NCBI GenBank assembly: GCA_001799195.1
Contig: MGSU01000061.1
Coordinates: 1-15,497, forward strand
DNA from: Deltaproteobacteria bacterium RIFOXYA12_FULL_61_11
GTDB taxonomy: Bacteria; Bdellovibrionota_F; JAHFAK01; YA12-FULL-61-11
Direction of reading: 5' to 3'
DNA length: 15,497 bases
Shown here piece by piece: positions 11,977 to 15,497 of this stretch. How positions within the stretch are numbered: the first letter of the stretch is position 1; each line of letters opens with the position of its first letter. The notes under the pieces were generated by a model. It searched no databases. It was not told the DNA's origin and saw nothing but the letters and a program-made list of their open reading frames with translations. The translations under genes and the position numbers were made by a program.

Positions 11977-12969
11977 GTGAGCCCAAAGGATCTTGATGTG
12001 GTTGGTATTGAGAATGCCCTCGTCGACATCATCATTGATGCCGACGAGCATGATCTTCTTCAACTCGGTTACCAGAAAGGAGTGATGCATCTGGTCGAGG
12101 AAGAGGAACAAGCTCGTTTACTGCAGTACCTCGCGGGTCGCGACCTCGGGATCGAAGTCGGTGGCGCCGGACCGAACATCATCCGCCTAGTCGCCTCGCT
12201 CGGCGCCCGGACCTGCCTCGCTGGAATGGTCGCAGACGATGACTTCGGACGCCACTTCCGTCAGCGACTGGCCGCTCTCGGCATCATGGATCGCATCGCC
12301 ACTACGACCTGCGCACGTACTGGGACCTCCGTCATCCTTGTCACCGGTGATGCCGAACGGACCATGCACACGCACCTCGGCGCCTGTCGTCACTTCGCTC
12401 CTTCCTACATTCCCCATCCCGAGATCGCGCGAGCACACTACTTCGTCATCACCGGCTACCAGTGGGATACCGACAATCAAATCGCAGCGGCCGGCCAAGC
12501 CCTCCAAGCAGCCAAAGCGGCAGGAGCCAAGGTGGTCTTCGATGTTGCAGATCCTTTTTGCATAGCCAGACACAGGCAAGCCTTCCTTGATCTCATGACC
12601 GAGGCGAAGATCGACATACTCTTCGCCAACCAAGAGGAGGCGAAAGCCCTGGTAGGAGCCGAACCCGAGCAAGCGATCGCCGAACTCGCTTCCAAGGTCG
12701 AGGTGGCGATTATCAAGCTCGGAGCCGCAGGTGCCCTAGTTCAATCAGGAAAGACGCGCCACCATGTTGCGAGCCGCAAGGTGGCGGTCAGGGATACCAC
12801 CGCTGCCGGCGACATGTTTGCCGGCGGTTTCCTGTACGGTCTCTTGCAAGGTTTCGACCTCCCTCGCTGCGGAGCCTTAGCTGCACGCTGCGCCGAGGTA
12901 GTCATCCAGAGGATCGGAGCAACGCTCCCCGAGGACCTTCGCGTCCAGGTCGGACTCGATCAAGGTTGA
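11977..12969 (+). CDS. PfkB-family carbohydrate kinase, adenosine-kinase-like
   Basis: This 330-residue ribokinase-fold enzyme phosphorylates a sugar or nucleoside with ATP. Seen: the N-terminal DVVGIENALVDIIIDADEHDL, a beginning common in adenosine-kinase-like members; the substrate-side glycine motif GGAGPN (62-67); ANQEEAKAL (217-225), the usual 'N..E...L' element; and the family signature DTTAAGDMFAGGFLYGLL (273-290) with the catalytic base D279 and the anion hole. The GTG start at 11977 is chosen because TAGGAGG lies six bases before it; the frame is open to 11764, but that part is arginine-rich and overlaps the divergent kinase gene. Presence of an adenosine deaminase gene 2 kb away supports a nucleoside salvage role, but ribose, fructose or other substrates remain possible. 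Its last ten bases overlap the convergent radical SAM gene. Confidence 0.87.
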   Translation: MSPKDLDVVGIENALVDIIIDADEHDLLQLGYQKGVMHLVEEEEQARLLQYLAGRDLGIEVGGAGPNIIRLVASLGARTCLAGMVADDDFGRHFRQRLAALGIMDRIATTTCARTGTSVILVTGDAERTMHTHLGACRHFAPSYIPHPEIARAHYFVITGYQWDTDNQIAAAGQALQAAKAAGAKVVFDVADPFCIARHRQAFLDLMTEAKIDILFANQEEAKALVGAEPEQAIAELASKVEVAIIKLGAAGALVQSGKTRHHVASRKVAVRDTTAAGDMFAGGFLYGLLQGFDLPRCGALAARCAEVVIQRIGATLPEDLRVQVGLDQG

Positions 12970-13985
12970 CGACGGCCCAGTACCATGTTCACCGCCTGGC
13001 GGAAACGTGGGCCGAGTTCTGCGGCCACGAAGCGCGTGGGCGAAGTGATGAAAACCGAATTGTTCACCGCGCAATAAATACCGCAATGCGGTTCGCAGCC
13101 TTTCCGTCCGGCATACCCATGAAGATCTGCTGTTGAGACCTGCAGGATATCGAGGTCGGTGGGACGATGACTACATAGCCAGAATTTACCATCTCCTGAA
13201 ACGAAGAAAATCTTGTAACCGGCCAAACAGGTCCAGTCGAAGCGTCCGCGGCCGAGAATGGCGGCCTGGAAATCCAGGATCGTCGAGGTCGCATGAATGG
13301 AACGCCCGACAGCCTTCAACCGACGCTGCTCCTCGATCAAAGCGAACAGGTCCTCTTGTTCGGCTGATGTGGTCCGGAAACATTGACCGGGATCGGCATG
13401 CATGACCCGCAGTTCGACATGGATATTCCGTGCCACAGCCCATTCTAGGATGGCGCGAGCGTCTCCCACAGTGTCGGCACACATCACCGTGGTGAGGTGG
13501 AACTTGAAAGGGGCCTTGTTCAGCAGGTCGATGCGGTCCTCGACGAGGGAAAGGGCCTTGCGGGACACGGCCGACGGGGTCAAACGATCGACCGAGAGTT
13601 GCAGCCCGTTCAGACCGGCCCCGGCCAATTCATCAATCTTTGCGGCGGTGAGCAGGTGACCATTGGTCGAGATCGAGGTATTCGCGCCCCGCTGGCGAGC
13701 ATGCCGTATCAGGGGACCCAGTTCAGGGTGGAGCAAGGGTTCTCCACCCACGAAGGCGATCTTGCTGACCCCCAGGTCCAGGACCTTGTCCACGCGCTGG
13801 CGCAATTGCTCGAAGGTGGGCATCGGCTTCCGGTTGTCATACTCATGACAATACCCGCAGGCGAGGTTGCATCGGTCGGTCACGTACAAACTACAGTGCA
13901 TCGGTCTTCGATCGATCGTACGCAGCAGGGGGGTTAACCACGCATGATCTCGGTAGTCTTTGATAACTCTCGAAAAAAGCTTCAT
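12960..13985 (-). CDS. Radical SAM protein with C-terminal SPASM-like cysteine cluster
   Basis: This 341-residue enzyme probably uses a [4Fe-4S] cluster and S-adenosylmethionine for radical chemistry; the substrate is unknown. Seen: the CX3CX2C motif CNLACGYC (C39, C43, C46), the SAM-binding FVGGEPLLHPEL (78-89), STNG (106-109) and LQLSVDRL (128-135). The C-terminal part holds C253, C271, C297, C301 and C305 (TCLAGYKIFF, WLCSH, GCEPHCGIYC), a spacing that resembles SPASM/twitch domains binding auxiliary clusters. I chose ATG 13985 because GGAG lies seven bases before it; the frame runs up to 14132 but the extra 49 residues are not protein-like. Radical SAM/SPASM enzymes modify peptides, proteins or small cofactors. 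No known partner gene is adjacent, so no function is assigned. Confidence 0.88.
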   Translation of the reverse strand: MKLFSRVIKDYRDHAWLTPLLRTIDRRPMHCSLYVTDRCNLACGYCHEYDNRKPMPTFEQLRQRVDKVLDLGVSKIAFVGGEPLLHPELGPLIRHARQRGANTSISTNGHLLTAAKIDELAGAGLNGLQLSVDRLTPSAVSRKALSLVEDRIDLLNKAPFKFHLTTVMCADTVGDARAILEWAVARNIHVELRVMHADPGQCFRTTSAEQEDLFALIEEQRRLKAVGRSIHATSTILDFQAAILGRGRFDWTCLAGYKIFFVSGDGKFWLCSHRPTDLDILQVSTADLHGYAGRKGCEPHCGIYCAVNNSVFITSPTRFVAAELGPRFRQAVNMVLGRRQP

Positions 13986-14169: not shown

Positions 14170-14315
14170 CTATCTCCCGGCCTCGCCCGAGGATCACACT
14201 CCGTCCATTGCGAACAGGTTTTGACCGCACGTACCCTGTACGGTTGAACGCCCTAAAATATTTCAACTTTCGGTGATCAAAGTATTTTATTTTCTTCCTA
14301 CACTGTAAATTCCGC

Positions 14316-14344
14316 TTGACAGCTTCGGGGAGCCCTGTTAGAAG
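14316..14344 (+). promoter_or_regulatory. Strong sigma70-type promoter of the predicted small RNA
   Basis: TTGACA (14316-14321) is a perfect -35. After 17 bases TAGAAG (14339-14344) matches the -10 at four of six positions. The 60 bases upstream are AT-rich (TTTTATTTTC and similar tracts), fitting an UP element. The GC-rich spacer/discriminator end (GCGGCC after the -10) recalls stable-RNA or stringently controlled promoters. Predicted start near 14350. Confidence 0.6.
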
Positions 14345-14349
14345 CGGCC

Positions 14350-14445
14350 TTGCAATGAACACGGCAGTGTCGTCATTGGCACTGCCCCCCTCCGACACGG
14401 TAGTGTACTAGCGAGACCTTCGCAAGTCACTACCGTGTTTTTTTT
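14350..14445 (+). ncRNA. Predicted two-hairpin small RNA or switchable apbE leader
   Basis: Between a strong promoter and a strong terminator lies about 95 bases without a protein frame. Hairpin 1 is GGCAGTG (14363-14369) with CACTGCC (14380-14386), ten-base loop. Hairpin 2 is the terminator, arm 14395-14405 with 14428-14438. The left arms are near copies (ACACGGCAGTGT at 14359-14370, ACACGGTAGTGT at 14395-14406), so CACTGCC of hairpin 1 can instead pair with GGTAGTG of hairpin 2 (one G-U), which would break the terminator. The linker CCCCTCCG (14387-14394) is unpaired in the first fold and complementary to GGAGG-type SD sequences. I do not recognise it as 6S, SRP, tmRNA, a GEMM/c-di-GMP or FMN riboswitch. 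It is either a free sRNA or an attenuator 186 bases before apbE. Confidence 0.55.
14395..14445 (+). terminator. Strong intrinsic (Rho-independent) terminator
   Basis: ACACGGTAGTG (14395-14405) pairs perfectly with CACTACCGTGT (14428-14438). Inside, after a one-base bulge, ACT/AGT and GCGA/TCGC continue the stem to the loop GACCT (14415-14419). Eight T residues (14438-14445) follow directly on the plus strand. On the minus strand there is no T run on the other side, so it acts on plus-strand transcription. Confidence 0.9.
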
Positions 14446-14631: not shown

Positions 14632-15497
14632 ATGCCAATCCTTCTCCTCCTGGCCTTCTTCCTCTCCGTGGCCCACGTATCGGCAGAAATCATCGAAGAG
14701 AAAGCCCTGCACATGGGAACCCTGGTGCGTCTGGCCACCGAGTTCGACCCCACGTCGCCAACAGTAACCCCTGCACACGTTCGCACGACTCTGACCGGCG
14801 GGATGAACCGCATTGCCGAACTCGAGGCCTTGCTCAGCGAGTACCGGCCCGGCAATGACCTTGCCAAGCTTGCACAGGCCGCGGGCAAACACCCGGTCAA
14901 GGTCCACCACATGGTCTTCGACGTCCTGAAAGAGGCTCTCCGGCTCGGTGACCTAACCGCAGGAGCTTTCGATATCACCTTCAAACCATTGGGGCGATTA
15001 TGGAATGTTGAACACCTGCTCACCCCACCCCCGGCCGGAGCCATAGCCATAACCAAGAGGCTCGTCGATTACCGCCTGGTCCAACTCGACGACCTCGCCG
15101 GTACCGTGTTTCTCCCCCTCGCCGGTATGGAGATAGCTCTCGGAGGCCTGGCGAAAGGCTATATTATCGACGCAGCGGCCGACTACCTGCGCAACCACGG
15201 CCTGACCCGTTTCCTCGTCGACGGCGGCGGCGACTTACGCCTCGTCGGTTCGAAAACCACCGGCCCTTGGCGAGTGGGCATCCGCCATCCCCGACGTCCC
15301 GATCAATTCTTACGGGTTGTTGCGGTCAAAGACCTCGCCGTGGTCACCTCAGGGGACTACGAACGCTTTACCATGCTCGACGGAAAGCGGTACCACCACA
15401 TCATCGATCCGGTCTCCGGGAAACCCGGGCTCGGCTGCCAATCAGTGACCGTGATCCACCGCGACACCATGACGGCTGACGGCTTGGCCACCGGCGT
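14632..15497 (+). CDS. apbE: FAD:protein FMN transferase ApbE, 3' truncated by the window end
   Basis: ApbE moves FMN from FAD onto a threonine of target flavoproteins such as NqrB/NqrC or RnfD/RnfG subunits, on the periplasmic side, with Mg2+. Seen in the 288 residues present: a signal peptide (PILLLLAFFLSVAHVSA, 2-18) without lipobox cysteine, so secreted rather than a lipoprotein; the early HMGTLVRL; LSEYRPGNDLAKL (68-80); GGLAKGYIID (171-180); DGGGDLRL (197-204); SGDYERF (240-246); HHIIDPVSGKP (255-265); and TADGLATG (281-288), all conserved family blocks including the metal-binding aspartate region near D283. About 20-40 residues are probably missing. ATG 14632 has GGAGG eight bases upstream. 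The preceding intrinsic terminator and small RNA may control it; no separate promoter is obvious. Target flavoproteins are not in the window. Confidence 0.95.
   Translation, partial: MPILLLLAFFLSVAHVSAEIIEEKALHMGTLVRLATEFDPTSPTVTPAHVRTTLTGGMNRIAELEALLSEYRPGNDLAKLAQAAGKHPVKVHHMVFDVLKEALRLGDLTAGAFDITFKPLGRLWNVEHLLTPPPAGAIAITKRLVDYRLVQLDDLAGTVFLPLAGMEIALGGLAKGYIIDAAADYLRNHGLTRFLVDGGGDLRLVGSKTTGPWRVGIRHPRRPDQFLRVVAVKDLAVVTSGDYERFTMLDGKRYHHIIDPVSGKPGLGCQSVTVIHRDTMTADGLATG

Follow-up and report, generated by a model that had tools for sequence, protein, structure and literature searches.

Between a radical SAM gene and apbE lies a 646-bp gap with two hairpins and a T tract, which raises the question of whether this element specifies a small RNA of its own, a leader that governs apbE, or a stop signal alone. 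The window analysed, 15,497 nucleotides in length, is one entire contig (C61) of the 4.64 Mb, 87 % complete assembly of RIFOXYA12_FULL_61_11, whose phylum is poorly sampled and represented by one other genome in the comparison set. Both hairpins and the T tract, their orientation toward apbE and the single copy in the assembly are seen directly in the sequence (Table 1). It is very probable that the DNA just ahead of apbE specifies the final part of a short RNA, which ends in a strong stop signal. On balance, the layout favours a promoter within the gap and a short transcript that would stop by default before apbE, either as a small RNA (sRNA) or as the product of an attenuator.

Table 1. Features of the radical SAM-apbE gap and its flanking genes (window coordinates)
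Feature	Position	Strand	Remarks
Radical SAM gene	12960-13985	-	Start about 13985; divergent from apbE
-35 hexamer TTGACA	14316-14321	+	Perfect match, read from the sequence
-10-like hexamer TAGAAG	14339-14344	+	4/6 matches, conserved final T missing; spacer 17
Possible 18-codon ORF MNTAVSSLALPPSDTVVY	14355-14411	+	Nearly leaderless; spans both left arms; weak
Left-arm repeat 1, ACACGGCAGTGT	14359-14370	+	One base off repeat 2
Hairpin 1	14363-14372 / 14377-14386	+	10 pairs (2 G-U), loop TCAT
Possible antiterminator	14379-14386 with 14399-14406 (span 14379-14406)	+	8 pairs (2 G-U)
Left-arm repeat 2, ACACGGTAGTGT	14395-14406	+	Terminator left arm; one base off repeat 1
Intrinsic terminator	14395-14445	+	11-bp stem, structured 22-nt loop, T tract
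apbE (FAD:protein FMN transferase family)	14632-15495	+	Pfam ApbE, 2.1e-69

The 3′ end of apbE lies off the window contig and continues on contig C113, which carries the apparent final 62 codons of the gene, with the first 19 residues overlapping the window end. These nineteen apbE residues are identical at the two contig ends (window 15439-15495 and G000:C113:2-58), and on the basis of this apparent overlap C61 and C113 are probably neighbours. The next long frame on C113 after apbE lies on the opposite strand in convergent orientation, and apbE thus seems to stand alone.

Terminator and promoter-like site

Rho-independent terminators consist of a G+C-containing stem followed directly by a T tract. 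The stem of the second hairpin is formed by eleven perfect pairs between ACACGGTAGTG (14395-14405) and CACTACCGTGT (14428-14438), with seven T residues directly after it, while its loop forms additional short stems in the predicted fold. The initial annotation had given an 11-bp stem with eight T residues, and both the pairs and a run of eight T (14438-14445) are present, but the first of these is the last base of the stem, so that only seven lie beyond it. When the gap was dinucleotide-shuffled 1000 times, no terminator with at least nine perfect pairs and a T tract arose, and neither strand of the 15.5-kb window has another perfect stem of at least 8 bp that carries a T tract. It was missed by a built-in terminator scan because the latter covered loops of 3-8 nt only. 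As the T tract is found on the plus-strand side only, the terminator would act on transcription toward apbE. Hairpin 1, the other of the two hairpins already recognised in the initial annotation, has a stability equalled by 1/1000 mononucleotide shuffles. The fold of the 106-nt element has an energy of -45.9 kcal/mol (z = -5.7), with no shuffle as stable.

Since the upstream radical SAM gene is divergent, a plus-strand transcript ending at this terminator must either begin within the gap or cross the radical SAM gene in antisense. A perfect -35 with a 17-base spacer had been proposed as its origin, and both hexamers were verified on the sequence, directly ahead of hairpin 1, with a predicted start at about 14350-14352. 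The TTGACA/TAGAAG pair is the top plus-strand site in the gap, with a score of 11.0 under a simple sigma-70 matrix which may not fit the sigma factors of the host, as compared with a median of 8.0, a 90th percentile of 10.35 and values up to 13.1 for the top site per dinucleotide shuffle. It is rejected by a rule-based promoter scan, as the -10 hexamer lacks the final T. The promoter is thus moderate and suggestive only. A second promoter-like site, TTTACA-17-AATACT (9/12 matches; 14281-14309), lies on the minus strand, faces the radical SAM gene and is within shuffle expectation.

The favoured reading is that a promoter in the gap, most simply TTGACA/TAGAAG, would start a plus-strand RNA, which would fold into hairpin 1 and then into the terminator, such that transcription would end by default at about 14445 and yield a free RNA of ~95 nt. 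The complete transcription unit of the initial annotation is borne out as far as the promoter-like site, the hairpins and the terminator are concerned, but its start and its transcript are predicted ones and its promoter is moderate. The poor -10 and the lack of a homologue among the genomes searched speak against a short transcript, as does the possibility that the terminator merely shields apbE from antisense or upstream transcription. In the latter case the terminator would be an insulator only, stopping stray or antisense transcription before apbE, and hairpin 1 would have arisen through duplication of an arm nearby or by chance. Such a role is conceivable, if rather doubtful. It accounts for the terminator and the near-identical left arms without regulation, and a 12-mer repeat of equal quality is found somewhere in the gap in 7.6 % of shuffles, but the matching right arm of hairpin 1 itself and the promoter-like site directly ahead are left unexplained. 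The arm repeat by itself is not rare; its position on both left arms is.

Arm repeats and alternative pairing

The left arms of hairpin 1 (arm 1) and the terminator (arm 3) are near-identical, as had been noted at the outset, with one mismatch between the two repeats, and ACACGGYAGTGT occurs just twice in the genome, once in each of these arms. Each left arm takes the form ACAC-N4-GTGT, so that the motif is present twice in direct orientation, and a related copy lies in inverted orientation. Palindromes of this type might be operator repeats, bound by a protein in the divergent promoter region. Although the arrangement of the copies would suit such a function, ACACGGYAGTGT is absent elsewhere in the genome and the T tract is left unexplained, and operators of this kind are highly improbable.

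The repeated arms would also allow the right arm of hairpin 1 (arm 2) to pair with arm 3. The arms had been described as interchangeable, and eight positions can indeed be paired, two of them as G-U, but the term is overstated. This pairing has an energy of about -10.7 kcal/mol, as compared with -16 to -17 kcal/mol for hairpin 1 and about -26 kcal/mol for the terminator, and when it is forced upon the full-length RNA, in which case arm 1 pairs with the terminator right arm (arm 4), the fold is ~15 kcal/mol worse than the default (-30.5 versus -45.3 kcal/mol). The switch can therefore not flip unaided. For an RNA still in synthesis, with arm 4 yet to be added, folding predicts 2:3 as the best pairing only if all or part of arm 1 is taken away. 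A switch is thus possible, but would require an agent that holds arm 1.

In ribosome-dependent attenuators the terminator and antiterminator are mutually exclusive, and the leader ORF places its regulatory codons over arm 1 and its stop codon before or in arm 2. By analogy, the element may be an apbE attenuator, in which 1:2 and 3:4 pair by default, while occupation of arm 1 by a ribosome, protein or ligand would permit 2:3 to pair and transcription to read through into apbE. This is a tentative proposal, and somewhat unlikely. It draws on an arm order as in classical attenuators, on the eight pairs and the behaviour of the nascent fold, and on the eight best plus-strand promoter-like sites of the gap in the matrix scan, none of which lies between the terminator and apbE. 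The last of these points mildly favours a leader role, but the high scores of shuffled sequences make it a weak argument. Against an attenuator stand the cost of the alternative full-length fold, the distance of 186 nt between the T tract and the apbE start, and the relatives of apbE: when the 700 nt preceding the match were scanned for strong terminators with a T tract (loops of 12 nt or less), 1/15 (L033) had one. No relevant paper tying apbE to attenuators or riboswitches was found in the literature.

A candidate leader ORF of eighteen codons, encoding MNTAVSSLALPPSDTVVY, opens about 4 nt past the predicted RNA start. A leader ORF that begins at the 5′ end of the attenuator RNA has a precedent in rnTrpL/peTrpL of Sinorhizobium meliloti (PMC7298713). 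The element resembles this trpL attenuator in the small ORF at or near the 5′ end, the 1:2 and 3:4 hairpins, the possible 2:3 pairing and, by inference, the release of the terminated RNA (PMC7298713). It differs in that the ORF carries no repeated regulatory codons or single-amino-acid run, its stop codon (14409-14411) falls beyond arm 3, unlike in trp-type leaders, and the downstream gene is not one of amino-acid biosynthesis. Neither a Shine-Dalgarno sequence nor a Pfam match was found for this ORF, and an estimate from the stop-codon frequency is that roughly 40 % of frames this long would be open by chance. It is thus a weak lead and not evidence. A lineage-specific attenuator may be envisaged in which translation begins at the extreme 5′ end and covers arm 1, so that apbE can be read, and the terminated RNA is a by-product. 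This is a speculative and improbable version which, if true, would represent a translation-sensing switch for the attachment of flavin to proteins.

Relatives and known RNA classes

The initial annotation could not place the element in a known family, and in line with this an Rfam covariance search of the window gave no family at the gathering threshold, while three matches in the gap at E <= 10 all fell far below gathering scores. BLAST comparison of the DNA against 98 genomes gave short chance matches only, of up to about 47 bases. A covariance model was built from one sequence (two identical rows), and thus represents its structure with no variation. Within its own genome the model found only the element itself, and a pattern search likewise found no second copy. 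A minus-strand model match is the near-palindromic terminator itself, and an 18-base match on contig C292 lies within an apparently protein-coding stretch. No homologue was found with the model in 386 + 8 genomes; three weak matches among the 386 (G130, G267 and G327) are located in or antisense to long frames, have no T tract and are considered chance. No homologue was found in viral contigs and plasmids. The relatives of apbE share 27-42 % identity with it (37-42 % for the best in GTDB genomes), and at their loci the model gave no match other than weak ones in L033. The element thus appears as an orphan among the data searched. Given the poorly sampled phylum, the missing homologues neither support nor refute a function.

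A riboswitch-like leader of an undescribed class, sensing a metabolite or protein, would have an anatomy identical to that of the attenuator and would agree with the lack of an Rfam match. The FMN (RFN) riboswitch, a known flavin-sensing leader, is similar in its location ahead of a flavin-related gene and its termination layout, but no Rfam match to it was obtained, either at the gathering threshold or at E <= 10. A single simple hairpin before the terminator leaves little room for an aptamer, and there are no relatives from which one could be defined. A further stem upstream, spanning the promoter (14312-14347), was rejected as a candidate structure: its pairing is real, yet 35 % of shuffles are as stable. 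A leader of this type must be considered very unlikely.

The short transcript may instead be a stand-alone, trans-acting sRNA with its own terminator, with apbE expressed from a separate promoter. Like terminator-ended intergenic sRNAs, the element is intergenic, short and compact (about 95 nt), with a promoter-like site, stable hairpins and a strong terminator with a T tract. It differs from these in that neither a homologue nor a typical Hfq was found. No Hfq scored above the Pfam cut-off in the 87 % complete genome, the element has no second copy, and no apbE promoter was evident in the matrix scan, all of which weigh against a separate sRNA. A protein of 233 residues that is encoded on contig C76 of the same genome (L055, 967-1668) might serve as partner of such an RNA. 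It has an N-terminal cold-shock domain (Pfam, 1.6e-14), followed by Hfq-like matches to Hfq_1 at residues 84-117 and Hfq at 179-229, both weak and below the curated cut-offs. It represents the only Hfq-like match found in the genome, and no paper on a fusion of cold-shock and Hfq-like domains was found.

A stand-alone sRNA is a possible but unassured identity for the transcript, rated nearly equal to the attenuator product, with the riboswitch-like leader far behind; under each of these readings transcription would end ahead of apbE by default. The view taken in the initial annotation, that sRNA and attenuator are not separable by sequence, still holds. If transcribed, the element would be an undescribed short RNA from a poorly sampled phylum and, should it govern apbE, protein flavinylation would be under an unusual form of RNA-level control. 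As one orphan locus built of ordinary kinds of parts, it offers a small general lesson.

The protein encoded by the divergent radical SAM gene has best NCBIfam matches that are all far below the cut-offs. Two distant genomes, G349 and G375, encode relatives that are ~40 % identical to it. The loci of these relatives gave no match to the covariance model, and no adjoining apbE was evident. In G375 the relative adjoins a second radical SAM frame, as well as nucleotidyltransferase-like and CDP-alcohol-phosphatidyltransferase-like frames, as named from a reading of their translations.
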